Shown piece after piece: positions 1,555-25,351 of a stretch of 64,000 nt of DNA; within the stretch, counting starts at the first letter, position 1; the number at the start of each line of letters is the position of its first letter. Origin of the DNA: Hydrocarboniphaga sp. (GTDB lineage Bacteria > Pseudomonadota > Gammaproteobacteria > Nevskiales > Nevskiaceae); the NCBI RefSeq assembly GCF_028291725.1, contig NZ_JAQGNT010000092.1:1-64000 (forward strand), in the 5' to 3' direction. The translations under genes were made by a program, and so were the position numbers. Below the pieces are notes generated by a model. It had not been told where the DNA came from, searched no databases, and worked only from the letters and a program-made list of their open reading frames with translations.

Positions 1555-1570
1555 AAGGGGACTGGCGGCC

Positions 1571-3058
1571 TCAACCGCCGTGTTGGGAGTGATCCATGCC
1601 CGGCATGGAAGGCATCAGGGTGTCGGGTGTCGCGGGCGCCGCCGCATTGGCGGCTGTGGCGCGATAAGGATTGCGCCTCGGCGGGTCGCCGAACTTCGGA
1701 TCGAGGCTGACGCGGCGGGCGACGGCGTTCTTCGGATGCCGATACCAGCCCGGATCGCGATAGTCGCCGGCCGCGATGCCTTCGCGCACTTTGAGCACCG
1801 TGAACATGCCGCCCATTTCGATCGCGCCATACGGGCCTGCCCCCATCATCATCGGCAAAGTGTTGTCGGGGCCCTGCAGGCCCATCTCGATGTGGCCGGC
1901 GTGTTCGGACATGCCGCTTTTTCCCATCGCCATGTAGCCCGGCAGCATCTTGCGGACTTCGGCTTCCACACCCGTCTGATCGACGCCGGCCACATTCGGA
2001 ACCTCATGGCCCATCGCATTCATCGTGTGATGCGACATGTGGCAGTGCAGCGCCCAATCGCCCGGTTCGGTCGGCACGAATTCCAAGTCGCGCATCTGGC
2101 CGACGCCGACGATCTCGGTCACTTCGCGTCGCCACTGCTCTTTCGGCCAGCGTCCACCGTCGCTGCCGGTTACCCAGAAGGGATTGCTGTGCAGGTGGAT
2201 CGGGTGATTCCACATCGACAGATTGCCGATGCGGATGCGGATGCGTTCGCCCATGCCGGCAACCAGGTGCTCGGTCGCTGGAAACACTTTCGAGTTGAAA
2301 GTCCACAGATCGAAGTTCTGCATCACCGACGGGTCCGGCCGGAAGGTGCCCGGACGCAGGGCCCAGTTGTGCAGCAGGAACGCATAATCGCGATCGATAC
2401 GCAGCGCTTCGCCCGCCTCGGGGTGGATGATGAACAGGCCCATCATGCCGAAGGCCATCTGCGTCATTTCGTCGGCATGCGGGTGGTACATGTGCGTGCC
2501 GTGCTGCTTGAGCGTGAACTCGTAGACGAAGGTTTCGCCCGGCGCGATGTGCGGCTGGTTGAGCCCGCCGACGCCGTCGTAGCCGTTGGGCAGATCGATG
2601 CCGTGCCAGTGCACCGTGGTCGGTTCGCCCAGCGCATTGGTCACGAAGATGCGCACGCGATCGCCTTCGACCGCTTCGATCGTCGGCCCCGGCGTGGTGC
2701 CGTTATAGCCCCAGCACTTGGCGCGACAACCGGGCGCGAACTCATGCTCGACTTCCTCGGCGACCAGATGGAATTCCTTGACGCCGCCCTGTACCCGATG
2801 CGGCAGGGTCCAGCCGTTGAGCGTGCGCACCGGCACGTAGCCCTGTGCGTCGCGCTGCAAGGCCGCCGGTGGTGCCAACTCCGCTGGTGGCGGTATCGGC
2901 TGGGTGCTCTCGCGCATCTTCATGTCGCCCATCTGAGACGAGGACATGTTGCTCATGTCGTGGCCCTCGTGCTGTGCGCGCGCGCTGGTGGCGACACCGG
3001 CCAGCAGGCCGGCGCCGCTCGCGCTCACGACCTGCAGCAGATCACGTCTTGTGACCAT
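1571..3058 (-). CDS. Periplasmic multicopper oxidase
   Basis: A 495-residue multicopper oxidase of the laccase/CopA superfamily. The N-terminus carries a twin-arginine-like signal (VTRRDLLQVV) ending near ARAQ, so export is probably by Tat in the folded, copper-loaded state. All four copper-binding motifs are visible: HWHGIDLP, HGTHMYHPHADE, HPIHLHS and the type 1/type 3 HCHMSHH near residue 340. A Met/His-rich segment follows (~residues 375-415) and the C-terminus is MPGMDHSQHGG. It is shorter than PcoA-type CopA and has an unusually long segment after the last copper motif. The likely role is oxidation of Cu(I) or phenolics in the periplasm. Its ATG overlaps the TGA of the upstream small Met-rich gene by one base, implying translational coupling. 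Confidence 0.92.
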   Translation of the reverse strand: MVTRRDLLQVVSASGAGLLAGVATSARAQHEGHDMSNMSSSQMGDMKMRESTQPIPPPAELAPPAALQRDAQGYVPVRTLNGWTLPHRVQGGVKEFHLVAEEVEHEFAPGCRAKCWGYNGTTPGPTIEAVEGDRVRIFVTNALGEPTTVHWHGIDLPNGYDGVGGLNQPHIAPGETFVYEFTLKQHGTHMYHPHADEMTQMAFGMMGLFIIHPEAGEALRIDRDYAFLLHNWALRPGTFRPDPSVMQNFDLWTFNSKVFPATEHLVAGMGERIRIRIGNLSMWNHPIHLHSNPFWVTGSDGGRWPKEQWRREVTEIVGVGQMRDLEFVPTEPGDWALHCHMSHHTMNAMGHEVPNVAGVDQTGVEAEVRKMLPGYMAMGKSGMSEHAGHIEMGLQGPDNTLPMMMGAGPYGAIEMGGMFTVLKVREGIAAGDYRDPGWYRHPKNAVARRVSLDPKFGDPPRRNPYRATAANAAAPATPDTLMPSMPGMDHSQHGG

Positions 3059-3385: not shown

Positions 3386-5206
3386 TTAATGCGCATGGGG
3401 CACTTCCTGGATGACGGGCTGTTCCGGAGACTTCTTTGGGTCGGGCATCGCCGAAGGCTCCATACCCTTCATCTCGTGTCCGCTCGCTGGCTTGGCCGGC
3501 GGTTTTGCAGTGGCGCCGCTTTGCGAGTGATCCATGCCTTCCATACCCGGCATGTCACCCATGGGCATGTCCTTCATGTTGTGCGGCGCTGCGGGCTTGG
3601 CGGATTTGGATGGGGCTGCCGGTTTCGACTGGCTGCCTTTGGGCTGCATGCCCTTCATTCCGGGCATTTCCATCGGCCTGTCGCCGCCGCCTTGCATGTT
3701 CATGCCCGGCATATCGCCCATTGGCGCTGGCTGACCAGCGGGCTCCATGCCGCTCATGCCTTCCATACCGCTCATCGAGCCGCCGTGATGCATGTGGCCC
3801 ATACCGCCGCCCTTGGGCTTGGTCAGCTCCTTGGGATCGAGCGTGGCATTCACAGCTTGATCGCTGCTCGGCAGCCGCTGCCCCACGGCGCGTGTGAGTT
3901 CGGTTCTCGCGAGCCAGTAGTCGCGCACCGCTTCGAGGTAGCCGGCGTAGGCGTCGTATTCCTGCTGCTTGGCCACCAGCAGATCGAAAATGCCGATCAG
4001 CATGTAGTTGACCTCGCCCTGCATCTGCGCAACCACCGCTTCACGCTGGGGGATCAGGCTGCCGCGGTAGCGTTCGATGCGGGCTCGGGTCGCATCGACC
4101 TTGGCGCGAGCGAGTTTGATGTCGTTGCTGCTGCCGATGACCAGCGTGTCGAGTTCGGCTTCGGCCTGGTCGAGTGCGGCTTGCGCAGCGGCTACCCGAC
4201 CGCCGCCCCAGTTGAACAAGGGCAGCTCGAACTGCAGTGTCGGCCCGACGTTGATGGCGCCGTCATAATCCTTCTCGCGCTCGACGCCGACCTCGATGTT
4301 GTTGATGAAGCGCGTATGGCGCTGCAGGCCGTAGCGAGCGGACAGCGCAGCCGCGTTTTTGCGAGCGGCCTCGATGTCGAGACGGGACTTCGCACCGAGC
4401 TGCTGCAACGCCGCCAGGTCGTCTTCCTGGGGCAGCGGCTCCGCCAGTCGCGCATCGAGCTGCCAGGTGTCCTGATCGGCAGACAGCCCCATGACGCGGT
4501 TGAGCGCGGTGCGAGCGGCCACGGCATCGGCGCCGGCCGACAGCGCGTCGAGCTGCGCCTGGCTGGCAGCAGCTTGTTCGGAGGCGAGTTCGCGCTTGCT
4601 GATGTTGCCGGCGTCGAAGAAGCGCTGGGCAAGATCGGCCGAGCCCTGCGCCGACTTCGCCACGGTCTCGCGCATCTGGGCGAGCTGGTTGGCACCGACG
4701 GCTTCGTAATATGCCGCCTCGACGTCGGCCGCGAGGTTCACCGCCGCCGAGGCTACCGACAGCTTCGCGGCTTCAAATTGCGCACCGGCATAACGGGAGT
4801 TCGCCGGGATGAACAGCAGGTTGACGAAATTGAAGGCGATACCCAGCGTCAGTTGCGCATTGGCCGCCGACGGATCGCCGGCATGCAGACGCGATGCGGA
4901 GAACACCGGGTTGGCGAGGCGCCCCGCTTCGTACACATCGGCTGCCGCCAGCCCCAGACGCGCCGATTCCTTGCGCACGGCGGGGCTGTTGACGAGCGCG
5001 ATCTGCACCGCAGCTTCGGGGGTTAGCGGACGGCCGACCAAGTCGCGGGTGAAAGATGCAGCATCCGCAGGCTGCGGTAGTGCACGACCACGATCGGCTG
5101 CGTACTGCGACGTCTGACCGCGGCCCCAATCGAATGGCACCGAAGCGCAGCCGCTGAGCATCGCCAGCGCGATGGCGCCGGGCGCGACTAATTTGTTTGA
5201 AAACAC
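3386..5206 (-). CDS. TolC/CusC-type outer-membrane lipoprotein with Met/His-rich tail
   Basis: An outer-membrane factor of the RND/TolC family, 606 residues from the chosen GTG start. That start has GGAGG 4 bp upstream; an ATG at 5221 is in frame but has no properly spaced ribosome site. The N-terminus is a lipoprotein signal ending in the lipobox LSGC. Residues ~45-455 show the OEP helical pattern (AVQIALVNSPAVRKESARLG and later LEAVRDYWLARTELTRAVG). From about residue 466 the protein continues with a 141-residue extension containing about 23 Met and several His in PMGDMPGM-like units. Ordinary CusC/CzcC end soon after the OEP domain, so this tail is unusual. No RND pump or adaptor gene is present in the window, so its partner is unknown. 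Confidence 0.87.
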   Translation of the reverse strand: MFSNKLVAPGAIALAMLSGCASVPFDWGRGQTSQYAADRGRALPQPADAASFTRDLVGRPLTPEAAVQIALVNSPAVRKESARLGLAAADVYEAGRLANPVFSASRLHAGDPSAANAQLTLGIAFNFVNLLFIPANSRYAGAQFEAAKLSVASAAVNLAADVEAAYYEAVGANQLAQMRETVAKSAQGSADLAQRFFDAGNISKRELASEQAAASQAQLDALSAGADAVAARTALNRVMGLSADQDTWQLDARLAEPLPQEDDLAALQQLGAKSRLDIEAARKNAAALSARYGLQRHTRFINNIEVGVEREKDYDGAINVGPTLQFELPLFNWGGGRVAAAQAALDQAEAELDTLVIGSSNDIKLARAKVDATRARIERYRGSLIPQREAVVAQMQGEVNYMLIGIFDLLVAKQQEYDAYAGYLEAVRDYWLARTELTRAVGQRLPSSDQAVNATLDPKELTKPKGGGMGHMHHGGSMSGMEGMSGMEPAGQPAPMGDMPGMNMQGGGDRPMEMPGMKGMQPKGSQSKPAAPSKSAKPAAPHNMKDMPMGDMPGMEGMDHSQSGATAKPPAKPASGHEMKGMEPSAMPDPKKSPEQPVIQEVPHAH

Positions 5207-5306
5207 GAAACCTCCAAGCATTCCTGGGTCGGAACATGCGGCGAGCGCATGACCGATGTTGAGAGCCGGCGGACAGGGGCACGCCCTGCCGCTAACGCGG
5301 CTTCAT

Positions 5307-5786: not shown

Positions 5787-5800
5787 TTGACTCAGATCAA
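5787..5800 (-). promoter_or_regulatory. FNR/ANR-type palindrome upstream of the copL-like gene
   Basis: TTGACTCAGATCAA, two half sites TTGAC/ATCAA separated by 4 bp, fits the FNR/ANR/DNR consensus TTGAT-N4-ATCAA with one mismatch. It overlaps the stop codon of the ATP-grasp gene and lies 73 bp upstream of the copL-like start. It is the first of three such sites in the copper island. Confidence 0.6.
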
Positions 5801-6937
5801 GGGCCGCTTCACTTCATAGGCGGGTTTCATGGCTGCGGCCAGCGCCCCGATCAGGCAGCAGGCCGCCTCCACGCGCAGCGGTGCGAAGCCGCTGCCCGGT
5901 TCGCGCATGCCCACGACCTGGCCCTGGAACACGCGGGCTGCGGCGCCGATGACCTGGCCCCGATCGGCGAAGAATCGAACGTCGTACTTCCATTGCCTGC
6001 CGTCGCGATCGATCACCGGATGCGGCGCATAGCGCTGAGCGAGATAGTCGTCGGCGGGCAGCTCGGCCAGCTTGCGGCGGCTGATGCTTTTGCCGATGTA
6101 CACGCCGCGGCTGGCATAGCCGGAGACCGGCTTGAAAACCCATTCGCTTCGGTCGGCGTACCAGGCCTCCACCGTTCGTGTGTTCATGGGCAGGGTCTCC
6201 GCGATGCGAAACGACAGTCCGGTAATGGCGTCGGTTGCCAGCTCCGGCTGTACCGACCATTCCACCAAGCGCCGCTTGTCGGCGATGGCCTCATAAGCCT
6301 CCGGCGAGGGCGCGAGTATCGTCGACTTCTCCAGTACGGCACGGCGCACCGACGCGTGCCCTGGCTCGGTCAACAAAAAATCCGTGCTGCGCCAATACAC
6401 GCGGTCGATCGCCGTCTCGCCGTGCCGGAGACGCCCGTCGTGGTAGTTGAGATCGGCCGCATCGAGTACCAGAACCTCGGCGGCGAACGGACGCATCAGG
6501 TCGGCCAGAGCCCGCATCTCGGCAAGCAGGGGCTGCGCCGCGAGGCTATCGTCGACGATGGCAACGATACCGGTTCTGTCACGGTCAAGGCCCAGCAGAT
6601 CCCGGCGGAACAGCGCGAGCAATCGCGCTTCCAGTTGCCCATGCTCCCAGTCCGCGCAGCATTCATTGCCGTTGCGCGCCGCCTGCATCGCGGTCAACAC
6701 GCCGCCGGCGTTGGTGTTGACTTCGATCAGGACTGGTCCATCCGGCATCGGATGTACGTCGTAGCTCAGCAGCAGGGGGCGCGAGTCGGCCATCGGGTTG
6801 GCCGCCACGATCCGCGACCAGAGCGCGGCAATGCCCGCCGACACCAGGTGCAAGGTAAGCGGCGAGACCGGCACCGGCTGATCGAGAACGGGGACGCCGA
6901 ACGAGCTGAGAATGACCTTAGGTGCTTGCTCCGTCAC
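5792..6937 (-). CDS. ATP-grasp-like protein of unknown function in the copper cluster
   Basis: About 381 residues from the GTG at 6937, whose GTGA overlaps the copB stop; two further in-frame GTG codons lie directly upstream (6940, 6943). No signal peptide is seen, so it is probably cytoplasmic. ATP-grasp-like traits are LIEVNTNAGG in the first third and, in the last third, EWVFKPVSGYASRGVYIGKS, a glycine-rich nucleotide-binding-like loop preceded by Lys, followed by KYDVRFFADRG. This order suggests a circularly permuted or divergent ATP-grasp enzyme that ligates a carboxylate to an amine or thiol. The family is not firmly recognised. Its place immediately after copB, translationally coupled, is unusual. 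It might make a copper-binding or redox-protective small molecule; that is speculation. Confidence 0.6.
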   Translation of the reverse strand: MTEQAPKVILSSFGVPVLDQPVPVSPLTLHLVSAGIAALWSRIVAANPMADSRPLLLSYDVHPMPDGPVLIEVNTNAGGVLTAMQAARNGNECCADWEHGQLEARLLALFRRDLLGLDRDRTGIVAIVDDSLAAQPLLAEMRALADLMRPFAAEVLVLDAADLNYHDGRLRHGETAIDRVYWRSTDFLLTEPGHASVRRAVLEKSTILAPSPEAYEAIADKRRLVEWSVQPELATDAITGLSFRIAETLPMNTRTVEAWYADRSEWVFKPVSGYASRGVYIGKSISRRKLAELPADDYLAQRYAPHPVIDRDGRQWKYDVRFFADRGQVIGAAARVFQGQVVGMREPGSGFAPLRVEAACCLIGALAAAMKPAYEVKRPLI

Positions 6938-7878
6938 CACCACATCCGGATGCCCGCTACGAACCGGCGTTCGTCGATTGAACCTCCCTCCGCGCGGCGG
7001 CGGTCGGCGGTGCCGTCGAAAGATCGCTCCCACACATAGCCCACGTAGGGCGCGAACTTGCGGTGCAGCTCGTAACGCAGGCGCAAGCCGCCTTCGACAT
7101 TGCCGAGGCCCGCACCCAGGCCGCGCTCGTTCTCAGGCTCGCTGTAGGCGTTTGCTTCGATGCTGGGCACCATAAACAGGCGGTTGGTTAAACGCATGTC
7201 GTAAGCGAGCTTGATCCGCGCCGATAGTCGCCCGTCGTCGCCGACGTAGCCAGTGGCTTCGATCTGAAACAAATAAGGCGCCAAGCCCTGGATGCCCGCC
7301 GCCAGATAGGTATGCGCACCGGCGCCAAAGTCCTGGCGCAGCCCGAGCTGCGTTCCCCAGAACGCCGCGGTGGGGCGATACCACAGCACCTCAGCACTCG
7401 TGGTCGGATCGATCTCGCCCGGCAGCTTGAGGCCCTGGCTGCGCAGCCACAGCTTGTTGCGGTCGTCGCCGTAGTTGCCTTGCAGGCTCCAGGCGTAGCC
7501 CTCGCCTTCGTTGCCGGACAGAAATTCCAACTCGTCCGCCAGCAGCGTGCCGAAGGCGATCCGGTCGGTTCGTTCCATGCCCGGCATGCCGGTGTATTCG
7601 TAGCCCTCGGCGTAGGCCTCGGGATCGCGCGCGTCGGGCGCCGCGGTGTCGCCTTGCATGGGTTCCATCGGCTTCGCCGGTGCCTGAGCCTCAGCGCTCA
7701 TGCCCGGCATCGGTTCCATTGGGGGCGTTGGCGTTGGTTCGGAGACGAGAGGCTGAGGTGTCGGCTTGGCGGGCATCTCCATGCCCGGCATCGCGTCCTG
7801 GGCGGCGGCTGTGACGTTCGCCGACGCCAGCAGCAAACCGCCAGCCAGGGCAGCCCTGCGCCAAGCCCTGGCGTTCAT
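6934..7878 (-). CDS. copB: Copper resistance protein B, outer-membrane beta-barrel
   Basis: A 314-residue CopB/PcoB homologue. The ATG at 7878 forms an ATGA overlap with the copA stop. Sec signal peptide (residues 1-27), then a Met/Pro-rich domain (~residues 28-90) with repeated MPGM and MEPM units able to bind copper, then the CopB barrel domain beginning DRIAFGTLLADELEFL and ending FVAGIRMWW with an aromatic C-terminus typical of outer-membrane barrels. Conserved CopB elements include WLRSQG, EVLWYRPTAAFWGTQLGLRQDFG and YVGYVWERSFDGTAD. It works with periplasmic CopA in copper sequestration at the outer membrane. It is co-translated with copA upstream and the ATP-grasp gene downstream. Confidence 0.93.
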   Translation of the reverse strand: MNARAWRRAALAGGLLLASANVTAAAQDAMPGMEMPAKPTPQPLVSEPTPTPPMEPMPGMSAEAQAPAKPMEPMQGDTAAPDARDPEAYAEGYEYTGMPGMERTDRIAFGTLLADELEFLSGNEGEGYAWSLQGNYGDDRNKLWLRSQGLKLPGEIDPTTSAEVLWYRPTAAFWGTQLGLRQDFGAGAHTYLAAGIQGLAPYLFQIEATGYVGDDGRLSARIKLAYDMRLTNRLFMVPSIEANAYSEPENERGLGAGLGNVEGGLRLRYELHRKFAPYVGYVWERSFDGTADRRRAEGGSIDERRFVAGIRMWW

Positions 7879-9581
7879 GCGACCACCACTTCGCGGAACA
7901 TGCCCGCGGCCATGTGATAGAGCAGATGGCAGTGAAAGGCCCAGCGGCCGGGCGCATCGGCGGTCACGCCAAAGCTGATGCGCTGCGCCGGCTGCACCGT
8001 GATCGTGTGCTTGCGCACCTGGAACGCGCCACCTTCCGATTCCAGCTCCATCCACATCCCATGCAGATGCATGGGATGAATCATGTTGGTGTCGTTGGCC
8101 AGAATCACCCGCAGCCGTTCGCCGCTGCGGAAGTGTATGGGTTTGGCGTCACTGAACTTGACGCCGTCGAACGACCACTCGAAGCGCTCCATGTTGCCGG
8201 TCAGGTGCAGCTCGATTTCGCGGCCGGGTGGGCGCGTGTCGATCGAGCCTCCGGGCGTACGCAAGTCGGCGTAGGTCAGCACGCGGCGTCCGTTGTTGCG
8301 CAGGTTCGGACCCGGATCGTCGAGATTGCTGCGCGGACTATCCACGCGCATGTCCACGCCGGGACCGTATTCACTGCGTGCGTGACGGGTCTTTTTCGGC
8401 ATGGACGCTGCACCGGTGGCCCCGTCTACCATCGGGGCCATGGCCGCCATCGCTCCCATCATGTCGGTCTCGCTCAACCACACCGGCGCGTCGGGCCGCG
8501 GCACGTCGGCTTGCATGCCGGCGCGCGGCGCGAGTGTGCCGCGGGCGTAGCCGGTGCGGTCCATGGTTTGCGCAAAGATCGTGTAGGCGCGGTCGTCCGG
8601 CATCTGCACGATCACATCGTAGGTTTCGCCGGGGCCAATGCGGACTTCGTCGACTTCCACCGGCGCCACGTCCTGACCGTCTGTGGCGACGACGTTCAGC
8701 TTGAGACCGGGAATGCGCACATCGAAGTAGGTCGCGGTGCCGGCGCCGATGAAGCGCAGCCGCACGCGCTCACCCGCGCGGGCGATGCCCGTCCAGTTGC
8801 TTGCGGGCGTAGTGCCGTTCATCAGATAGGTATAGGTCGCGCCCGACACGTCGCTGTAGTCGGTCGGGCTCATGCGCGCGCGGTTCCACATTACGCGCCG
8901 CTTGTGCGCACCGGCCACACCCAGTCGCGACAGATCTTTGAGAACGTCGCCGGTGGTGGGCAGCCCGTAGTTGTAGTAGCTGCCCATCTTTTTCAGATTG
9001 AGATACACCTGCAGCGGGGCCTCGTCGGTCCAGTCGCTGAGCAGCACGGTGTAGTCGCGATCAGTGCGCAGTGGTGCCACCACGCGCGGTTCGACGACGA
9101 TGGCGCCATACAAGCCGGTCTGCTCGTGCAGCGTGTGCGCGTGGTACCAGTGGGTGCCCGATTGGCGCAGCGTGAATCGATAGGTGAACGTCTCACCGGC
9201 GGCGATACCCGGAAAACTGATGCCGGGCACGCCATCCATCTCAGGCGGTACCAGCAGGCCGTGCCAATGCACGGCGGTCGGCTCGCTCAGGCGGTTGGTT
9301 ACGCGCAAGCTGATCGCATCACCCTCGCGGATGTGCAATACCGGCGCGGGCACTTGGCCGTTGACGGCCGTGGCCATGCTGGCCCTGCCCGTAAAATTCA
9401 CCGGCAGCTCGGCGATCTCCAGGTCGAACTCGGTGCCGCGCAATTCGGTCTGCGCACCGGTAGTCGCCAGCAAGCGCGCGGGCCAGGTACCGAAAGCGCC
9501 CAGCGCGGCGGTAGCCGCCACCCCTTGTACGAAACGGCGGCGGGTCACTGGACTGGTCACTGGGGCTCGCGGGTCGATCAT
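7875..9581 (-). CDS. copA: Copper resistance multicopper oxidase CopA
   Basis: A 568-residue PcoA/CopA-type multicopper oxidase. The N-terminus has a Tat signal (TRRRFVQGVAATAALGAFG). Copper ligands appear in the expected order: VHWHGLLVP, GTHWYHAHTLHEQ, HPMHLHGMW and HCHLLYHMAAGM. Between domains 2 and 3 there is a Met-rich loop (MMGAMAAMAPM) as in CopA proteins that bind extra Cu(I). The role is oxidation of Cu(I) to Cu(II) and copper storage in the periplasm. It overlaps the preceding DUF2933-type gene and copB by 4 bp each, so the three are one translationally coupled unit. The full length and all motifs are intact. Confidence 0.95.
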   Translation of the reverse strand: MIDPRAPVTSPVTRRRFVQGVAATAALGAFGTWPARLLATTGAQTELRGTEFDLEIAELPVNFTGRASMATAVNGQVPAPVLHIREGDAISLRVTNRLSEPTAVHWHGLLVPPEMDGVPGISFPGIAAGETFTYRFTLRQSGTHWYHAHTLHEQTGLYGAIVVEPRVVAPLRTDRDYTVLLSDWTDEAPLQVYLNLKKMGSYYNYGLPTTGDVLKDLSRLGVAGAHKRRVMWNRARMSPTDYSDVSGATYTYLMNGTTPASNWTGIARAGERVRLRFIGAGTATYFDVRIPGLKLNVVATDGQDVAPVEVDEVRIGPGETYDVIVQMPDDRAYTIFAQTMDRTGYARGTLAPRAGMQADVPRPDAPVWLSETDMMGAMAAMAPMVDGATGAASMPKKTRHARSEYGPGVDMRVDSPRSNLDDPGPNLRNNGRRVLTYADLRTPGGSIDTRPPGREIELHLTGNMERFEWSFDGVKFSDAKPIHFRSGERLRVILANDTNMIHPMHLHGMWMELESEGGAFQVRKHTITVQPAQRISFGVTADAPGRWAFHCHLLYHMAAGMFREVVVA

Positions 9582-9880: not shown

Positions 9881-10327
9881 CTACATGTCCGACATCGGCT
9901 GGTCCGGCATCGGCTTGGGATCGACGGCCGGCGGCGGCATCTTCATCGCGTCGTCGCCCTTTTCCATGCAGCCCATGCCCATGCAGCCCTTTTTCATAGG
10001 CGGATCGGCAGGCGGTGTGGCGCCTCCGTCCTTGGGCATGTTCGACATGCCCTTGCCGGGCGGCTTGCTCATCGGCATGCCCTGCGCCTGTTGCAGTTGT
10101 TGAACCTGCGCGCGCAAGGATTTGATTTCCTGCTCCAGCTGCGCGTTGCTGCGCGGTGTGGTTGTTGGCGCCTTCGCTGCCGGCGCCGGAGTGCTGGTTG
10201 TGGCGGCAGGCGGGGTCATGGGCGCCATAGGCTCCATGTCCGCGTAGGCCGCTGTCGTGGCCACACCGAGGACAAGAACGGCCGCGGCCAAGCGGGCGGG
10301 AGCGGTTTTCATCAAACGGGTTTGCAT
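9881..10327 (-). CDS. Secreted Met-rich protein with short coiled coil
   Basis: A 148-residue protein starting at 10327 with GGAG 8 bp upstream. It has a Sec signal (LAAAVLVLGVATTAAYA), a Pro/Ala/Thr-rich spacer, a predicted short coiled coil (NAQLEQEIKSLRAQVQQLQQ), then a Met-rich tail containing the motif CMGMGCMEKGDDAMKMPPP. It may trimerise or dimerise through the coil and bind copper through Met/Cys. No family is recognised. It leads the DUF2933-copA-copB-ATP-grasp unit. The promoter region carries an FNR-type palindrome at 10449-10462. Confidence 0.75.
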   Translation of the reverse strand: MQTRLMKTAPARLAAAVLVLGVATTAAYADMEPMAPMTPPAATTSTPAPAAKAPTTTPRSNAQLEQEIKSLRAQVQQLQQAQGMPMSKPPGKGMSNMPKDGGATPPADPPMKKGCMGMGCMEKGDDAMKMPPPAVDPKPMPDQPMSDM

Positions 10328-10471: not shown

Positions 10472-11248
10472 TCAGTGGTGTTTGTAAAAACCGACGCCGA
10501 CAATGTCGTTCCAGCTGGTGGTGTTGTGGCACTCGAAACACTGATCCACGCGCGCGCCTTCCTTGCCGGCGAACTTCTGCGAGACCATCGAGAAATGCTC
10601 CATGAGATGGCTCGGAGGCGGTTGATGGCACTGCACGCAATCCTTGGAACTGGGTGACGGATGCTGGTAACCGGGCACGACCCAAGACTCAAACGCATGG
10701 CATTGCGCGCAGTCACTGCCAAAGCGCTTGAGGTGTGGGTCCTTGTTGTCGTGGCACCCCGCGCAATTGAGAGCCTCGCGCGCCGTGCTGGCGTCGAGTT
10801 GTTTTGGGCTGTTGATGTGCAGCCAGATTTCGAGCGACTGAAGTGTGGCAGCGCTTTCCGGGTCGCTGCGAGAAGCGCGCGCAAGGGTTCTTGTACCGAT
10901 TCTGGCAAGAGCCAGGTGATCCATCACCACCGGCCGCACACCCGTCGTTTGATGTTCGATGTGACAAGCCGAACATTCCTGCACGCTCGCGTGGAAGGCG
11001 GTCGGCTGACGCCCGAGCAGTCGCTCCGCAATGGCATGGCAGGCCGTGCACTTCGCTACTGTGACTCCCACGGCCGGCTGGTGGCAGGCACCGCACTGGC
11101 TGCTGAGATAGGCGTGCCCCGGCGACAGCGGACCCGGACTGAGCATTTTCTGCGCCGCAGCCGATGCCGGCGCGTAGTGGCGCACTGCGAACACGGCGCT
11201 TGCGGCCACCACCGCGATCAGCAGCAAGCAAAGCGCGACTCGCTTCAT
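10472..11248 (-). CDS. Heptaheme periplasmic cytochrome c
   Basis: A 258-residue multiheme cytochrome. After a single N-terminal hydrophobic segment (signal or anchor, residues 4-22) there are seven CXXCH sites: C52, C67, C92, C162, C180, C204 and C237. Sites 1-3 and 4-7 form two clusters separated by ~65 residues that include IWLHINSPKQLD, resembling the tandem cytochrome c3/c7-like arrangement of periplasmic electron shuttles. The start at 11248 is chosen because ATGA overlaps the stop of the upstream b561-like gene. It is placed to take electrons from that membrane protein and pass them into the periplasm. The terminal acceptor (a multicopper oxidase, copper, or another cytochrome) cannot be read from the sequence. 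Confidence 0.88.
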   Translation of the reverse strand: MKRVALCLLLIAVVAASAVFAVRHYAPASAAAQKMLSPGPLSPGHAYLSSQCGACHQPAVGVTVAKCTACHAIAERLLGRQPTAFHASVQECSACHIEHQTTGVRPVVMDHLALARIGTRTLARASRSDPESAATLQSLEIWLHINSPKQLDASTAREALNCAGCHDNKDPHLKRFGSDCAQCHAFESWVVPGYQHPSPSSKDCVQCHQPPPSHLMEHFSMVSQKFAGKEGARVDQCFECHNTTSWNDIVGVGFYKHH

Positions 11249-11988
11249 GGCAACCACCGCAGGCCGAAGTAAATGCCGGCACCGATATGCAGCGCCAGCA
11301 GCCCGTAGAAGACGATAGACAGAGCGATGTGCAGGTTCAGCGCGCGAGCGAACCAGCGCTTGAAGAACTCATCCATGCGGATGGCATATTCGAGATCGGC
11401 CACGGACTCGGCGATGCGAGTGACCTCGGCGGCAGGGCCGCTGGCCGGCAGCCCGATCCCCAACGACGCCAGCCCCGAGCTGAAGACGAACGCCTTCGAG
11501 CCCGCGGGTAGTTCTGCCGGAGCCTGCTCGATCACGCCCCAGGCGTGATCGAGATCGCCTCTTGCGGTTTGCAGCAGGATCAACTTGTCTTTGATGTCGC
11601 GGCTGACGTAGGTCAGCAGGTAGCGAACTGCGATGCCGCTGACAACGACCAACAACAACACCGCCGTCAAGACCACGCCCAGCGGACTGTCGAACTTGTG
11701 CCCGGTGTGGATGATCGCGAGCAAGGGGCCAAAAATGCCGGCATAGACGTGCAAGCTCATCCAGGACTGCATCGAGACGTATGGCGTGATGCGCTGGTGA
11801 AAATACGGGATGCGTTTGACGATGGGATACGCGAGCGGCATCAGCATCAGCACCGCGCCCGCGATTCCGAAGGCGGTGCCAATGCCACTGCCCGGAAAGC
11901 GCGGCGAGCGATGGACGAGAAAGCCCAGCCAGGCCAGCAGCAACACACTCAGCACACCCATGACCACGATGCGTTCGCGCTCTTTCAT
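11245..11988 (-). CDS. b561/ferric-reductase-like diheme membrane protein
   Basis: A 247-residue integral membrane protein with about five hydrophobic helices (near residues 8-25, 36-55, 76-96, 104-125 and 218-243). Two pairs of histidines lie 14 residues apart, H80/H94 and H220/H234. This spacing is typical of helices that sandwich two stacked b hemes in cytochrome b561 and ferric-reductase families. The loop 130-215 between the heme helices is long and soluble. It sits directly after the NAD(P)H reductase gene (2-bp gap) and overlaps the heptaheme cytochrome gene. The natural reading is a transmembrane electron conduit. No quinone-site signature is obvious. Confidence 0.75.
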   Translation of the reverse strand: MKERERIVVMGVLSVLLLAWLGFLVHRSPRFPGSGIGTAFGIAGAVLMLMPLAYPIVKRIPYFHQRITPYVSMQSWMSLHVYAGIFGPLLAIIHTGHKFDSPLGVVLTAVLLLVVVSGIAVRYLLTYVSRDIKDKLILLQTARGDLDHAWGVIEQAPAELPAGSKAFVFSSGLASLGIGLPASGPAAEVTRIAESVADLEYAIRMDEFFKRWFARALNLHIALSIVFYGLLALHIGAGIYFGLRWLP

Positions 11989-11990
11989 GG

Positions 11991-14093
11991 CTAGGCCTCA
12001 ACCACGATCTCAGCCTTGGGCTTGGCCTGGCAGGCGAGGATGACGCCTTTAGCCTTGTCATCGGTGTCGAGAGCGTCCTCGACCGCCATCTCGACTTCGC
12101 CGGATCTCATCGTCACCTTGCACACCCCGCAGGTACCGACACGGCAGGAGAATTCGATGCCGATGCCCAACTCCTCGGAGAGTTCCAGCACGGTCTGGCC
12201 GCTGCGGCTGTTGGAAGATTTATTGCTCTTCGCAAAGCTCACCCGGGGACCGGTGGCCGGGGCCATGAGCCGGGCTGAGGTGCCCGCTGCGGCCGGGGTT
12301 GGCGCGGCACTGCCAAAGTCCTCGGTCTTCACCTGCTTGGGCGGAACGCCCATCTCTGCCAACAGTGTCTTGATAGCGTCCATCATCACTGGCGGCCCGC
12401 ACAGATGGATTCTGCGCGAGGTGAGATCCGGCACCGTCTGCGTCAGCAGTTCCCGGGTGATGCGTCCGCGTGGCCCCTGCCAGTCGGTGCCTTCCGGGCG
12501 TTCCATCGTCACGGTGACGTGCAGCTTTGAATTGAACCGCTGAAGCTCAGCGAGATCTTTCGCAAAAATGAAATCGGCGGGTGAGCGGCAGGCGTAGAGA
12601 AAGAAAATGTCGCCGGTCCATGCACGCTCGGTGAGAAAGCGCGCGATGCTCATCATCGGTGTGATCCCGACGCCGCCGGCGATCAGCACGATGCTGCTGG
12701 CCTCGGCGCCGGTGAACGTAAAGCGTCCGACCGGGCCGCCCGCTTCAATCACATCGCCGACCTTGAGCACATCATCGACGTGCCGAGAGACCGCTCCCCG
12801 AGGCTCGCGGCGCACGGTGAGGTCCACAAAGCCGCGCTGCGTTGGCGATGACGATATGGAGTAGGAGCGGTTCATCTTTGCGCCGCCAATCCACAATGAG
12901 ACGTTGAGGAACTGACCGGGTAGAAAGGTAAACGGCAGCCGTCCGGCGCCCGACGATGGCAGCAAGCGCAGCGTTTTGACGCTCGGCGTTTCGATGATGA
13001 CGCTGCCCACGCGCAGTTGCCCACGCCACTTGGCGGTCAATGGCGCTGCTGCTACGGGGGCGTCGGGAACGACGAAGGCCGACTGCACTTCAGGCGCCGC
13101 AACGAATGCTGGTGGCCTTCTAGCCAGCGAGGCTGCTGCAGCGTCCTGCGTGGCAGGTGGTGGAGCCCCGGCGGCGGGTGGCGTCGGGGGCGGCGTCGGG
13201 CCGGGTGCTCCGGCAGGCGGCGGTGACGATCCCGGCGGCGACCCATCAGGGCCGCCTTCGAGACGCCCAAAGAGTGCCGCTGCGCGGCGCATCTTGAGGA
13301 CGGAGAGGATAACCATCGCCAGCGCAAACGCGATCAACAGCAACATCGTGGTGAGGTGAAACACCTTGACGCCGGCGGACGTGTGCGATGCTCCAGTGAC
13401 AATGGGCGATGCCAGGTTCATCTCGCGCTTGAACCAGTCCAATGCCAGGTTGCGCGGCGACTTGCCCTCGGTCAGCACGCGCTGCGCGGCGATGCCAGCG
13501 CCCACTTCGCCGAGCGCCTCGCGCATCAGGCCGACCGCTTGCTGCATAGCGGCGTGGTCGCTGGCTTGCGTGGCCTGGTTGAGCGCCTCATAGCTGCTCG
13601 CCAATTGCGCCAAACCTTTGCTGAGCTGGTGATTCGCCAGTGCTTCAATCTCGGCGCGTTTCTCCGTGGTGAGTGCCGGCAGCGTCATCAGCGACGGATA
13701 AATCGGCGTCTTGGCGGCACCGCCGGCTCCACAACCCGCAGCCATGCAGCCACCCATCGCCGCTGGTGCAGCTGTGCCGGCTATGCCTGCCGCCGCCGCG
13801 CCGATTTCCGGCGCAGGCGCTGCCATCGCCGCTGCACCGGAGCCGGCGGGGGCCATCATCTTGCCCATCTTGCCCATCATGTCCATCATCCCGCCGCCCG
13901 CCGTAGCCGGTGAGGCAGGTGCGTCAGCGGTGGCGGGTGCGGCCATCGGCGCAGCGGGTGTCGTTGTGGGTGCAACGGGCGCGCCTGCGGCCGGATGATG
14001 GCTGGCATGACCGCTATCCGTCTGAGCGTCCGCGGGAAGCGCGGCGAGCGTCAGCGCCGCGGCGAAAACATGGATCGCGACTGCACGATTCAT
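11991..14093 (-). CDS. Membrane-anchored FAD/NAD(P)H reductase with C-terminal [2Fe-2S] ferredoxin and Met-rich exported N-domain
   Basis: A 700-residue multidomain protein; ATG 14093 has AGGGGA 5 bp upstream. Residues 1-23 are a Sec signal. Residues 24-130 are Ala/Pro/Met-rich (DMMGKMGKMM, CMAAGCGAGG). Residues 135-235 are helical. One transmembrane helix spans ~245-267, followed by a Pro-rich linker (280-315). Then come an FNR-type FAD domain (RSYS at 409-412), an NAD(P) domain (GGVGITP at 473-479; CGPPVM at 565-570) and a plant-type ferredoxin (C650, C655, C658, C688). With an exported N-domain the reductase faces the cytoplasm. It would oxidise NAD(P)H and pass electrons through [2Fe-2S] to the b561-like protein. 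The combination with a metal-binding exported domain is unusual. Confidence 0.85.
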   Translation of the reverse strand: MNRAVAIHVFAAALTLAALPADAQTDSGHASHHPAAGAPVAPTTTPAAPMAAPATADAPASPATAGGGMMDMMGKMGKMMAPAGSGAAAMAAPAPEIGAAAAGIAGTAAPAAMGGCMAAGCGAGGAAKTPIYPSLMTLPALTTEKRAEIEALANHQLSKGLAQLASSYEALNQATQASDHAAMQQAVGLMREALGEVGAGIAAQRVLTEGKSPRNLALDWFKREMNLASPIVTGASHTSAGVKVFHLTTMLLLIAFALAMVILSVLKMRRAAALFGRLEGGPDGSPPGSSPPPAGAPGPTPPPTPPAAGAPPPATQDAAAASLARRPPAFVAAPEVQSAFVVPDAPVAAAPLTAKWRGQLRVGSVIIETPSVKTLRLLPSSGAGRLPFTFLPGQFLNVSLWIGGAKMNRSYSISSSPTQRGFVDLTVRREPRGAVSRHVDDVLKVGDVIEAGGPVGRFTFTGAEASSIVLIAGGVGITPMMSIARFLTERAWTGDIFFLYACRSPADFIFAKDLAELQRFNSKLHVTVTMERPEGTDWQGPRGRITRELLTQTVPDLTSRRIHLCGPPVMMDAIKTLLAEMGVPPKQVKTEDFGSAAPTPAAAGTSARLMAPATGPRVSFAKSNKSSNSRSGQTVLELSEELGIGIEFSCRVGTCGVCKVTMRSGEVEMAVEDALDTDDKAKGVILACQAKPKAEIVVEA

Positions 14094-14489
14094 AGGTTCC
14101 CCTGTTTTCAAGCTGAGCCTTGGCGAGCGCTCAAGCCAGCAATAACCTCAGGGCGGCGATCGCCACCTTTGGGGGCGGCAATACCGTGATAGATCGGCGG
14201 AGTTTCGTTCTTCAGGCCGGGCAGGTCGTACACGCGATGCACGGCGCCACGGACCGAACACTCCATCGTGGAGACGACGTCTTCCGGTATTTCCACGTAT
14301 TAGCCAAGCAACGCAAACTCCTGATGCCTGGCCCAGCTAAACCCGCATATACGGACAGCCCTCATGGTGCGAGAGCTTCTACGTGCAAGGCGCCGGGCCG
14401 TCGGTCTGGCAGCGCACATAACCTGCCCCCGTCCACAACGCGGCGCTTGCGTTTGCATGGAAATGTCTCCGGGAAGAGGAGAGTACGTT
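14094..14489. other. Non-coding gap in the copper island
   Basis: This 396-bp stretch separates the small Met-rich gene from the reductase gene. It contains one 62-codon minus-strand frame (14108-14296, GTG start) that I do not recognise and do not support as a gene. No terminator hairpin or repeat is evident. A promoter for the reductase operon may lie here, but I see no convincing element. Confidence 0.4.
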
Positions 14490-14822
14490 TCAGCCCTGTC
14501 CGGGTTCTTTGTGCTTGTGCGGGCCGGTTTTCGGCTCCGGCGACGTGTCGGAGCTGTCGCAGTCTTTCATGTGCATCGCCGGGTCCATACCCTTCATGCC
14601 GCGCGTATCCGGCATCGGATGGTCCTTGGCGTCGTGCGTCATCGCTTCGGTACCCGCCTTCGGCGTGCAAGTGACGGTGGGCTTGTTGGCCGGGTCATGG
14701 ATCTTGGGGTCCATGCCTTGCATTCCGCGGGTCTGCGGCATCGGGGCGGCCTCGTCGGCGGCGTAAGCCAAGCCGGTCAAAATCAGACAGGCGGCAGCAA
14801 TGCTGAGGGACATCTTGTTCAT
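14490..14822 (-). CDS. Secreted protein with duplicated MPxTRGMxGMDP motif
   Basis: A 110-residue protein; ATG 14822 has GGAG 7 bp upstream. It has a Sec signal (MNKMSLSIAAACLILTGLAYA) and a mature part with two imperfect copies of one unit: PMPQTRGMQGMDPKIHDPAN and PMPDTRGMKGMDPAMHMKDC, separated by ~27 residues containing one Cys. The tail is charged and His/Lys-rich (TGPHKHKEPG). The Met/His spacing suggests copper binding. No named family is recognised. An FNR-type box precedes it, and the divergent P-type ATPase starts 338 bp away. Confidence 0.72.
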   Translation of the reverse strand: MNKMSLSIAAACLILTGLAYAADEAAPMPQTRGMQGMDPKIHDPANKPTVTCTPKAGTEAMTHDAKDHPMPDTRGMKGMDPAMHMKDCDSSDTSPEPKTGPHKHKEPGQG

Positions 14823-14899
14823 GAGATAACTCCAATTGAGTGTTTTGCAGCAGAGCAATACCGGCTGCCGCGAGCCCGGGTAACGATTGAACAGAGCCA

Positions 14900-14942
14900 C
14901 AGTGTCATGGCCGGACCGCCATGGCGCATTGACTCAGATCAA
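14900..14942 (-). promoter_or_regulatory. FNR/ANR-type box and aligned -10-like element upstream of the MPxTRGM protein
   Basis: TTGACTCAGATCAA at 14929-14942, flanked by GGCGCA, with ACACTG at 14900-14905 exactly 23 nt downstream on the minus strand. Box, flank and spacing are the same as at 10420-10462. Confidence 0.6.
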
Positions 14943-15049
14943 TCTGCTTTTTTGAGTTTTGGGGTGATGCTGGAGACCAGAGCACCTTTGGTGCTCCGAT
15001 GGATTGATCACACAGGTCCCACCCGAGCGCGCAAACTTGGATACAGCTC

Positions 15050-15081
15050 TTGACTCTGGACTATGGTCCAGCCTTTACAGT
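15050..15081 (+). promoter_or_regulatory. MerR-class promoter of the copper ATPase
   Basis: A -35 hexamer TTGACT (15050-15055) and a -10 element TACAGT (15076-15081) are separated by 20 bp, the long spacer typical of MerR/CueR-activated promoters. The spacer holds a perfect dyad, CTGGAC-TATG-GTCCAG (15056-15071). The ATPase start codon lies ~80 bp downstream. No MerR-family gene is in the window. Confidence 0.72.
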
Positions 15082-15160
15082 GTGCCTCGCGTCATTTTTT
15101 TACCGGACACGGTGCGCTGTCCGAATGCCCCATCGTCAACGCATTGAGCCAGGAACCATC

Positions 15161-17638
15161 ATGAGCAGCTGCGGAAACACCAAGTCTCAAAGTATCGACG
15201 CTCCTTCAAAGCCGGCGTCCCGGCCGACGGCGTCGTTGCCGACAGGCGCCCCGCACGAATCGAAATCCTGCTGCTCAGGAAAACCTGCAACAGCCGCGAT
15301 GCCCGAAGTTTCGGTACATCAACACCATCACCATCCTGGTGGCGACCGGGATAGCGACGCATCCGGGATGGAAAAGGATCCGGTCTGCGGCATGTCCGTC
15401 GATCCGAAGACCGCACGCTCTCAAGTGCATGCCGGCCACACCTACTACTTCTGCAGCCAGGGTTGTCAGACCAAGTTCACTGCCGATCCCGAGAAATACC
15501 TGAAGCCCGCGATGGCCGAAGCGGTGGTGGCATCCGAGGGCACGATCTACACCTGCCCCATGCACCCTGAGATTCGCCGGGACCATCCCGGCAACTGTCC
15601 CAAGTGCGGCATGGCGCTGGAACCGGAGATGCCGAATCTGCAGGCCGAGGATAATCCCGAGTTGCGCGACTTCACGCAGCGCTTCTGGTGGACGCTGCCG
15701 CTCTCGGTGATCGTGATGGCACTGGCGATGCTCGGGCATGGTCTTGGCCTGATGAGCATGGCCACGCAGTCCTGGGTCGAGTTGATCTTGGCCACTCCGG
15801 TGGTGCTGTGGGCCGGTTGGCCGTTCCTCGAACGCGGCGTGCGATCGATCGGCCAGCGCAGCCCGAACATGTTCACGCTGATCGGGCTCGGCGTTTCCTC
15901 CGCCTACGTCTACAGCGTGATTGCCACACTCGCACCCGGAGCGTTCCCGACGGCTTTTGCCGCGCACGGCCGCATCGGCGTGTACTTCGAGGCCGCTGCC
16001 GTCATCGTGTCGCTGACCCTGCTTGGCCAGATTCTCGAACTGAAGGCACGCTCGCAAACCTCGGCCGCGATCCGCTCGCTGCTGGGCCTGGCACCCAAGA
16101 CCGCGCGGCGTCTGCGCAGCGACGGCCTGGAGGAAGATGTGCCGCTCGACCAGGTCCAGGTCGGTGATCGCCTGCGCGTGCGCCCGGGCGAGAAGGTGCC
16201 GATCGACGGCGTCGTGCTGGAGGGCGAAAGTCACGTCGATGAATCGATGCTCACCGGCGAGCCGGTGCCGGTTCACCGCAAGCCGGGCGACGCGGTGATC
16301 GGCGCCACACTCAACGGCAACGGCAGTCTGGTGGTCCGTGCCGAGAAGGTCGGTACCGGCACCTTGCTGTCGCAGATCGTGCAGATGGTGGCGCAGGCGC
16401 AGCGCAGCCGGGCGCCGATGCAGCGCATGGCCGACGCGGTGAGCTTCTGGTTCGTGCTCGGCGTGATCGGCATCGCGCTGACGACGCTGCTGGTTTGGGG
16501 ACTGTTCGGTCCCGAGCCGTCATGGGTGTACGGTTTCATCAACGCGGTCGCGGTGCTGATCATCGCCTGTCCCTGCGCGCTGGGCCTGGCCACGCCGATG
16601 TCGATCATGGTGGCCACCGGGCGCGCCGCGAGTTCCGGCGTGCTGTTCCGCGATGCCGCGGCCATCGAGATGCTGCGCAGGATCGACACGCTGATCGTCG
16701 ACAAGACCGGCACGCTGACTCAGGGCGCGCCCGCTTTCCATAGCGTGCAGGCCGTGGCGGGCTACACGAGCCGCCAGGTGTTGCAGCTGGCCGCCAGTCT
16801 CGACCAGGGCAGCGAGCATCCGCTGGCCGCGGCCATCGTCACCGAGGCGCGGGCCAAGGGCGTCGCTCTGTCGGCAGTACAGGGTTTCGAAGCGGTCACC
16901 GGTATCGGTGTGCGCGGTGTCGTGGATGGACAGGCGCTGACGCTGGGCAATACCGCGCTGATGCAGCAGACCGGCGCGGACACCGCACCGCTCACCGCGG
17001 CGGCCGAGGCGCTGCGCGCCGAGGGTGCGAGCGTGATGTTCCTGGCCGTCGACGCTCGTCTCGTGGGCCTGGTCGCGGTTTCCGATCCGATCAAGCCCTC
17101 GACGCCGGAGGCCTTGAAGACCTTGCGGGCGCTCGGCATCGAGGTGGTCATGGCCACCGGCGACGGCGTCACCACCGCGCGTGCGGTTGCGCAGCGCCTG
17201 GGCATCACGGAGTTCTACGGCGAGATCCGCCCCGAGGGGAAAGCCAGGCTCGTGGCCGATTCCAAAGCCAAGGGACGCCGGGTTGCGATGGCGGGTGACG
17301 GCATCAACGACGCGCCGGCACTTGCGGGTGCCGACGTCGGCATCGCGATGGGCACCGGTACCGACGTGGCCATGAACAGCGCGCACATCACGCTGGTGAA
17401 AGGCGACCTGCTCGGCATCGCGCGGGCCATCGATATCTCGCAGGCGACGGTGCGCAATATGAAACAGAACCTGGGTTTCGCGCTGCTCTACAACAGCCTG
17501 GGCGTGCCGATCGCCGCCGGTGTGCTGTACCCGATTTTCGGCATCCTGCTGTCGCCGATGCTGGCGGCATTGGCGATGAGCCTGAGTTCAGCGTCGGTGG
17601 TGGGCAATGCACTGCGGCTGCGCGGCAGGACTTCTTAG
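15161..17638 (+). CDS. Copper-translocating P1B-type ATPase with YHS and heavy-metal-binding domains
   Basis: An 825-residue P1B ATPase; ATG 15161 has AGGA 6 bp upstream. The N-terminus is a Cys/His-rich leader (C4, CC at 37-38, HQHHHH at 53-58). A YHS domain follows (~72-117; C76, C98, C102), then a heavy-metal-binding domain starting YTCPMHPE (~130-156). No HMA CXXC domain is present. The core is complete: CPC metal site at 470-472, phosphorylation DKTGTLT with D514, HP of the N-domain (SEHPLAAAI), [10 protein letters not shown] hinge, and a last-helix MxxSS region ([17 protein letters not shown]). The family exports cytoplasmic Cu(I). It is transcribed away from the minus-strand copper genes under a MerR-type promoter. 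Confidence 0.95.
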
Positions 17639-23305: not shown

Positions 23306-23474
23306 GCGTCTCCTCATATGGTTCTGTTATCGGCATGCGTCTCTTCTGACGAGAGTTCGATGCAGGCAGAACCATACGCCGGCCACAGGCCCGAAATGCG
23401 GAATCGGGCAGCGCTGGCCGACCGGGGCAAATCTGGTTTCGGTTCACGGCAACTTGCGGGTTGAAACGAGCCGT

Positions 23475-23571
23475 GTAGGTTGGGGTGAGCGCAGCGAACC
23501 CCAACATCGGCGCGGCGCTGGCCCTGATCTGGCGGTGATCGTTGGGGTTCGCTGCGCTCACCCCAACCTAC
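23475..23571. repeat. REP-like palindrome, GTAGGTTGGGGTGAGC family
   Basis: A long inverted repeat: arms GTAGGTTGGGGTGAGCGCAG... and complement of about 33 bp each around a ~30-bp loop. It is the only copy of this family in the window. It lies in the 280-bp gap between the Rieske ferredoxin gene and the TonB receptor gene. Confidence 0.9.
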
Positions 23572-23585
23572 CCCCAAGTTACCCG

Positions 23586-23906
23586 CTAAACGAGGACTTC
23601 GATCCAGTCTTCGACGACGCGTACTTCGTAGGTCGCGATCGGTTTGGTCGCGGGCAGACACAGCGCATTGCCGGTTGCAAGATCGAAGCGCGCACCGTGG
23701 GTCGGGCAGGCGATCCAGCCATTGCCGAGGCGTCCGCGCTCCAGCGGTTTGTCGTTGTGCGAGCAGACGTTGGAGATCGCATGCAGCTGGCCGTTGACGT
23801 TGCACAGCAGGATCGCCTTGCCTTCGATGCTCAGCGGCTTCTTGGCATTGGGCGGCAGCTCGGAAGCCGGCAGCACGCGCGTGAATGCCAGCTTGTGTGG
23901 ATTCAA
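23586..23906 (-). CDS. Rieske-type ferredoxin
   Basis: A 106-residue soluble Rieske [2Fe-2S] protein, the size of oxygenase-associated ferredoxins. The ligands are CSH and CPTHG (~residues 51-75), with CSHNDKPLERGRL and ARFDLATG around them. The start is inferred as TTG 23906, which forms a TTGA overlap with the stop of the oxygenase gene; no ATG is available. It is expected to deliver electrons to the oxygenase encoded immediately upstream. No matching ferredoxin reductase gene is nearby. Confidence 0.85.
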   Translation of the reverse strand: MNPHKLAFTRVLPASELPPNAKKPLSIEGKAILLCNVNGQLHAISNVCSHNDKPLERGRLGNGWIACPTHGARFDLATGNALCLPATKPIATYEVRVVEDWIEVLV

Positions 23907-25330: not shown

Positions 25331-25351
25331 AAGGCTTGCTCCAGATGGATT

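Follow-up and report, generated by a model that had tools for sequence, protein, structure and literature searches.

A mobile three-gene module in a copper island of Hydrocarboniphaga sp. is a candidate NAD(P)H-to-periplasm electron conduit with a possible role in copper reduction

Diheme membrane proteins that hand electrons to the periplasm are known from MsrPQ. The PepSY_TM reductases FoxB and CrpH are described in similar terms (PMC13038864), and the eukaryotic FRE/NOX and STEAP proteins lead electrons from NAD(P)H over a flavin and two haems b through one membrane to an outer metal site, with the HX13H motif occurring twice (PMC7558416). CcoG, a bacterial protein for which Cu(II) reduction has been proposed, uses two 4Fe-4S clusters (PMC7558416). 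The inner-membrane proteins of PCC3/PCC4-type conduits have five helices and two HX13H motifs, quinone exchange is proposed for them, and the signatures given for their superfamily are WX3HX13H, present twice, and SGXXG (He 2017, PMC5566968). In the Alteromonas hyn cluster, orf1 and cyt are treated as candidate hydrogenase accessories (Weyman 2011, PMC3102683). Here, we analyze three adjacent genes, RED, CYTB and CYTC (together, the trio), of a 64,000-nucleotide stretch of Hydrocarboniphaga sp. DNA (contig NZ_JAQGNT010000092.1, positions 1 to 64,000; hereafter the window). The trio is real and widespread; it is a variant of the diheme-b/multiheme-c modules, with copper as a candidate role.

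An earlier note on this DNA had placed three linked genes at 10472-14093, upstream of copA-copB, and read them as an NAD(P)H reductase, a cytochrome b561 and a seven-haem periplasmic cytochrome. The open reading frames (ORFs) lie where the note put them, on the minus strand in the order RED, CYTB, CYTC, and the spacing between them is almost nil:

RED, 11991..14093, minus strand: reductase with exported His/Met tail, 700 amino acids (aa) from the ATG at 14093 (ORF and Pfam)
CYTB, 11245..11988, minus strand: predicted diheme-b inner-membrane protein, 247 aa (ORF)
CYTC, 10472..11257, minus strand: heptaheme c3/c7-type periplasmic cytochrome, 261 aa (ORF)

A scan of genome contigs yielded 282 CYTB relatives, and the counts of trio loci given below rest on the best 80 of these, a set that includes near-copies (e.g. 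L042/L043, L052/L053/L065 and L098/L099/L100). In all 80 loci the three genes are present on one strand. In 74 of them they run RED-CYTB-CYTC with less than 300 nt between neighbours (median gaps 2 and -29.5 nt), and the other six have one extra gap of up to 2.3 kb. When 72,556 plasmid records were searched with each protein separately, CYTB matched 52 records, RED 51 and CYTC 52. Of the 53 records found with RED or CYTC, 50 were found with both, the singletons at the cut-offs used being CP099473 with RED only (a partial match), and CP001771 and NZ_CP102495 with CYTC only; 26 of the 52 CYTB records are predicted to be conjugative. Non-pathogenic bacteria such as Sphingobium sp. SYK-6 and Variovorax sp. 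WDL1 are among the plasmid carriers. Moreover, across 63 loci the three proteins agree in their pairwise distances (r 0.63-0.71), a correlation that none of 1000 permutations equalled. RED, CYTB and CYTC form one real co-conserved unit, whose recurrence goes beyond chance. This is the block that the earlier note proposed to look for, and in the loci and plasmids searched its genes did not prove independent of one another; of copper genes they are independent in a minority of loci.

The records in a 60-row CYTB tree bear ten phylum names, single placements among which may be wrong since many records are metagenome bins. Near the source the trio is sporadic: it was found in 2 of 61 related genomes and in 7 of 398 genomes of the source phylum (the window's own being counted in both), and in none of three other members of the genus. 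The window genome has one copy of CYTB. A Bradyrhizobium BTAi1 plasmid (L031) has two copies of the trio, at 14363-16517 and 23456-26728, the first with RED shortened beside an IS3 element. Viral carriage was also considered; 12 stretches of viral_contigs matched a pattern and none of them encodes a relative. No paper describing RED-CYTB-CYTC as one system was found in a literature search that covered few subscription papers and no supplements. The view that no named system has this composition therefore stands for the trio as a whole and has to be narrowed for its parts, since CYTB and CYTC seem to correspond to the orf1 and cyt genes of PMC3102683 and the superfamily of CYTB was noted in He 2017 (PMC5566968).

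RED had been described as an FAD/NAD/[2Fe-2S] reductase with one membrane helix and an exported Met-rich part, and this description was borne out by Pfam domains and by the structure model, in which a single membrane helix at 244-278 stands ahead of the flavin domain, with KMRR at 267-270. From the N-terminus, the protein is laid out as follows:

RED layout: N-terminal signal; HxxHHP/Met-rich exported tail, ~25-130; helical hairpin, 143-224; membrane helix, 244-278; proline-rich linker; FAD/NAD(P)H domain; C-terminal [2Fe-2S] domain

Residues 388-693 contain FAD_binding_6, NAD_binding_1 and then a C-terminal Fer2 domain, each over the Pfam cut-off, which is the domain order of FNR-like reductases with a C-terminal [2Fe-2S] domain (Hcr/PaaE/GbcB-like); no equivalog cut-off of NCBIfam was reached. 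The model has a mean predicted local distance difference test score (pLDDT) of 74.5, mostly above 85 in the flavin/ferredoxin part, and its fold matches in the Protein Data Bank (PDB) are phthalate dioxygenase reductase and cytochrome b5 reductase. In a 46-row RED alignment, H246 is invariant; it lies near the periplasmic side, among the first residues of the membrane helix.

The tail of the window protein bears H29/H32/H33 and a Met-rich stretch, and its HxxHH motif and Met residues are kept across phyla. Behind the signal peptide, HxxHH is present in 55 of 61 full-length relatives as trimmed, and in 58 of 61 once upstream codons are read; the exceptions are L064 and L110, which are without the motif, and L118, which is cut off. 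A regular-expression search picked up a Met cluster in 59 of these 61. In the 46-row alignment, conservation reaches 90% or more at H29, H32, H33, M76, M79, M80 and M90. RED is encoded by two ORFs in 12 loci, and in 11 of these the cut falls at the linker, such that the first ORF comprises the tail and the membrane helix and the second begins just before the flavin domain. No membrane helix is predicted in 10 of these 11 second ORFs; the exception, L066, has a hydrophobic stretch within the flavin domain that also trips the helix predictor in unsplit relatives. The two ORFs share 4 nt in L050, L059, L063 and L066, an overlap like that of ordinary gene pairs. In L073, RED is cut within the flavin domain instead of at the linker, and in L044 and L111 it is disrupted by insertions. 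As the linker splits leave no helix in the second ORF, and KMRR follows the helix, a cytoplasmic reductase with a periplasmic tail is supported. The predicted topology, consistent with the earlier proposal, has its basis in both the split genes and the model.

The two His pairs 14 residues apart, which the earlier note had pointed out in the membrane protein, are H80/H94 and H220/H234 of CYTB. All four residues are invariant in a 60-row CYTB alignment, and two HX13H motifs are present in 60/60 of its rows, as well as in 20/20 control proteins (see below). The CYTB model (mean pLDDT 83.6) has five long helices (3-23, 35-59, 73-95, 102-155 and 185-243) and a predicted cytoplasmic loop at ~128-210. 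The putative haem ligands H80/H220 would lie on the cytoplasmic side and H94/H234 on the periplasmic side. Beyond these four predicted ligands, H26 and H97, near the periplasmic side, are also invariant in the 60-row alignment.

The family label is another matter. Window CYTB is over no curated Pfam cut-off, and cytochrome b561 (PF01292), the name given to it in the earlier note, was dropped, as the protein falls below the cut-off. Against Ni_hydr_CYTB it scores 19.9 bits, with a cut-off of 30.1. The ferric reductase domain PF01794 was likewise rejected, leaving window CYTB unmatched and reaching 5 of 60 members at E <=0.01 (best 3e-4). A comparison by sequence with solved structures gave no clear match (best E 0.07; a putative ferric reductase at E 0.84), a Foldseek search with the model gave nothing at E <= 0.001, and VIA-align gave Z up to 10 against unrelated helical proteins, which may reflect only a shared arrangement. 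Because these structure matches are weak or generic, the model does not identify the fold.

A relationship was found with the distant CYTB relatives of 20 control loci (L120-L139), whose PCC3-like label rests on their cytochromes: in 20/20 the membrane protein lies beside a cytochrome with at least 21 CxxCH motifs (21 to 67 by ORF). Aligned by hhalign, the 60 CYTB rows and the 20 control proteins match with a probability of 99.4 (E 3e-21, 236 columns), and by this profile comparison CYTB is homologous to membrane proteins of PCC3-like clusters. The strict signatures differ, as WX3HX13H occurs twice in 4/60 CYTB rows versus 20/20 controls, and SGXXG in 30/60 versus 20/20; window CYTB has W76 ahead of H80, no W before H220 and no SGXXG. 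As the strict signatures are missing from it, the trio forms a branch separate from the PCC3-type proteins. An FAD/4Fe-4S pyridine-nucleotide-type oxidoreductase lies nearby in 18/20 of the PCC3-like loci, so those conduits too may be NAD(P)H-linked and not quinone-linked.

CYTC has an N-terminal signal or anchor and the seven CxxCH motifs expected of a seven-haem periplasmic cytochrome. Cytochrome_C7 and Cytochrom_c3_2 are over the Pfam cut-off, and the best PDB match is a tetraheme cytochrome (E 2e-5). Seven motifs were counted in 78 of 79 CYTC relatives and six in the remaining one. The window genome encodes CcmE, therefore c-type cytochrome maturation is present at least in part.

Like the PCC3/PCC4 inner-membrane proteins, CYTB has five long helices, two HX13H motifs and a multiheme cytochrome c as its neighbour. 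Unlike those clusters, the trio has a shorter CYTB, a seven-haem cytochrome, a dedicated FAD/[2Fe-2S] reductase with a His/Met tail, and a copper context; neither a porin nor an extracellular multiheme cytochrome was seen among its recurrent neighbours from clustering, no porin model having been run. With FRE/NOX and STEAP the trio has in common NAD(P)H as the source and a proposed path over flavin and two haems b across one membrane, whereas in the trio flavin and haem domains are on separate proteins, and a [2Fe-2S] cluster and seven haems c are added. CcoG is comparable in its proposed Cu(II) reduction, and differs from RED in having 4Fe-4S clusters in place of FAD/NAD/[2Fe-2S] domains. MsrPQ and FoxB/CrpH resemble the trio by description, although they have neither a multiheme c nor a dedicated reductase with a fused tail.

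The trio is linked to copper genes beyond chance. Copper markers were counted within about 10 kb in the 65 loci of at least 12 kb (15 shorter loci were dropped), and 43 of the 65 have one, versus 1 of the 20 control loci (Fisher p 9e-7). The markers are CopA-type oxidase (22 loci), CopB (19), other multicopper oxidase (20), CPC-type P-ATPase (21), DUF411 (3) and four-helix copper protein (3). With most near-copies omitted, the copper label is borne by 39 of 52 rows, the window included, loci below 12 kb being counted there if marker-bearing. CopB lies within the trio locus in 15 of 39 genomes, compared with 0.16 expected from CopB density. In 31 of 70 loci, the gene immediately before RED is a Spy/CpxP-like metal-resistance gene. 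On the CYTB tree the copper label changes at least 12 times.

Based on these observations, we consider it likely that electrons flow outward, from NAD(P)H over FAD, [2Fe-2S] and two haems b to seven haems c, which is the transfer that best fits the parts and their topology. Cytoplasmic NAD(P)H would reduce the FAD of RED, from which the electrons would reach first the C-terminal [2Fe-2S] cluster of RED, then the haems b of CYTB, the one on the cytoplasmic side before the one on the periplasmic side, and finally the seven haems of CYTC. At the exit, the exported tail of RED may present copper, its His cluster being suited to Cu(II) and its Met clusters to Cu(I). Cu(II) would thereby be reduced to Cu(I), the form handled by Met-rich carriers, P1B-ATPases and RND pumps. 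As NAD(P)H has a potential of about -0.32 V and Cu(II)/Cu(I) of about +0.15 V, outward flow would be downhill. Because of the conserved His/Met tail and the copper-gene linkage, we infer that copper is the likeliest single acceptor. An outward NAD(P)H conduit in which copper is presented on the RED tail and Cu(II) is reduced to Cu(I) has, in our judgement, slightly less than an even chance, the direction, haem order, copper acceptor and purpose all being matters of interpretation. In function, such a conduit would parallel the eukaryotic FRE/STEAP metalloreductases, but be made of several proteins and travel on copper islands. More tentatively, the trio might be a cupric reductase dedicated to copper outside the cytoplasm and powered by NAD(P)H, in which a single polypeptide oxidises NAD(P)H on the inner side and offers copper on the outer side, haems b and c closing the circuit across the membrane; going by record titles, plasmids and islands would have carried it into at least ten phyla.

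Several observations weigh against the copper reading. No copper marker lies within about 10 kb in 22 of the 65 loci, and CopB, found in 26 of 39 genomes, is absent from 13. The expectation that copAB would always accompany the trio thus failed, and copper genes are not its obligate companions. When 18 of the 22 marker-less loci (all but L044, L067, L099 and L100) were searched more widely, 11 turned out to have one of these genes (Cu-ATPase, multicopper oxidase or CopB) no more than about 31 kb away on the same contig, which counts for little because Cu-ATPases are multi-copy; 7 of the 18 are still without a marker over that range. The 20 control loci are all of one class, whereas the trio loci span phyla. 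The trio also stands beside [NiFe] hydrogenase in Alteromonadaceae and in one Cyanobacteria metagenome-assembled genome. Sugar/NADPH, phosphoketolase and ATPase genes share the islands, so the copper linkage may partly be shared cargo: zwf occurs in 12 loci and gnd in 6, and phosphoketolase, ATPase and glutamate dehydrogenase genes are also found. The pentose-phosphate genes may serve NADPH supply or be passengers. Lastly, nearby multicopper oxidases would reoxidise Cu(I), so that next to them a reductase would seem to run a futile cycle. These neighbouring oxidases and the loci without copper genes are the strongest objections.

The hydrogenase context merits a closer look. [NiFe] hydrogenase genes are near the trio in 3 of the 80 loci; the trio is directly ahead of hydrogenase genes in L148, L153, L115 and L116, and near them in L062. 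On Alteromonas macleodii pAM1A3 (L148) and Glaciecola pGLAAG01 (L153), RED, CYTB and CYTC are followed by genes for a 407-aa protein, a protease, a HupH-like protein and the hydrogenase small subunit, an order that matches orf1/cyt/orf2/hynD/hupH/hynS (Weyman 2011, PMC3102683). Going by this order, orf1 and cyt of the hyn cluster would be CYTB and CYTC, with RED directly upstream; in the accessible portion of that paper, RED is outside the clone list orf1-hypE, no conduit or copper role is proposed, and Orf1 and Cyt are reported to be unnecessary for maximal hydrogenase activity in E. coli. Salinimonas iocasae plas12 shares with the Glaciecola plasmid a 6.7-kb stretch that is 98% identical (L152 5194-11890 versus L153 5188-11884), CYTB being identical at 252/252 positions, CYTC at 264/264 and RED at 632/645. 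Past this stretch the hydrogenase genes of plas12 are gone except for hypE, and MerR, Cu-ATPase and cupredoxin genes follow; no NiFe large subunit was found in a search covering the plasmid and not the chromosome. Since the plasmid has the trio but not the hydrogenase genes, the trio persists without this hydrogenase.

The conduit could be a general periplasmic electron supply that feeds whichever oxidoreductase the island carries, the His/Met tail being a metal sensor, sink or protective tether instead of the acceptor. This would agree with MCO_copA near the trio in 22 and MCO2 in 20 of the 65 loci, and with the hydrogenase context in three of the 80 loci and on the two Alteromonadaceae plasmids. 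However, the tail is kept whatever the neighbours, hydrogenase included, the Salinimonas plasmid has lost the hydrogenase and kept the trio, and Orf1 and Cyt are reported to be dispensable for maximal hydrogenase activity in E. coli (PMC3102683); overall, we find such a supply rather unlikely. It is quite improbable that the trio serves low-oxygen or stress metabolism and is found in copper islands only because mobile islands gather both. The zwf and gnd genes (12 and 6 loci), phosphoketolase, N-type ATPase (7 Legionella loci), glutamate dehydrogenase and the repeated switching of the copper label on the CYTB tree speak in its favour. Against it stand the conservation of the His/Met tail and the marked excess of copper genes relative to the control loci, and zwf/gnd are equally readable as NADPH supply.

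Inward flow, from a periplasmic donor (H2 via hydrogenase, or some other reductant) to CYTC and on to NAD(P)+ by way of RED, is improbable. It draws on the trio's position directly before the hydrogenase genes in L148, L153, L115 and L116 (and near them in L062), and on the ability of FNR-type reductases to run in both directions. Against it, hydrogenase genes are rare neighbours (3 of 80 loci), the reduction of NAD(P)+ is beyond so weak a reductant as Cu(I), and the membrane potential opposes inward electrons. As for a quinone-linked module, with CYTB exchanging electrons with the quinone pool and RED being secondary, the homology to PCC3-like membrane proteins (hhalign probability 99.4), for which quinone activity is proposed (He 2017, PMC5566968), speaks in its favour. 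RED is nevertheless present in every one of the 80 loci, no quinone site was identified, and an FAD/4Fe-4S oxidoreductase is also near 18/20 PCC3-like loci, which makes this very improbable.

The interpretation in the earlier note, a transmembrane electron conduit within a copper island, is overall partly supported. As a circuit from NAD(P)H to the periplasm that is mobile and strictly conserved and ends at a conserved His/Met site, the trio makes a concrete three-gene candidate. It suggests that diheme-b/multiheme-c modules, so far linked to quinones, can run directly on NAD(P)H, and such powering bears on bacterial metal reduction outside the cytoplasm.

In Legionella loci L098-L101, L105, L108 and L109, the trio follows a second-type (N-type) ATP synthase cluster. 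In the window, CYTC is followed on the same strand by a Met-rich exported protein, then copA, then copB, the surroundings being:

CopB outer-membrane copper protein, about 6934..7878, minus strand (PF05275, 230.3 bits)
CopA multicopper oxidase, 7875..9581, minus strand (TIGR01480, 812.9 bits)
Exported Met-rich coiled-coil protein between CYTC and copA, 9881..10327, minus strand (from the sequence; start inferred)
Small exported Met-rich protein upstream of RED, 14490..14822, minus strand (from the sequence; start inferred)
Divergent heavy-metal P-type ATPase with YHS and HMBD domains, 15050..17638, plus strand (Pfam; start uncertain)

The coiled-coil protein has nothing over a Pfam cut-off and has homologues in loci L041 and L045; the small protein is without a match in a Pfam search, has a homologue in L041 and lies outside the conserved trio. 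No CueR-like palindrome is found near the trio, and the two matches with 3 mismatches in the window are at chance level (shuffles mean 1.5). None of the anti-phage families searched for was found. A 413-aa open frame at 5792-7033, within the copper island, has no Pfam match and an uncertain start; it may resemble ATP-grasp proteins. The island also carries, at 3386-5221, a TolC-like outer-membrane protein whose C-terminal tail is long and rich in Met and His, and positions 526-3058 of the window encode a second multicopper oxidase, followed by a protein in which a cytochrome c domain is fused to a SnoaL-like domain.

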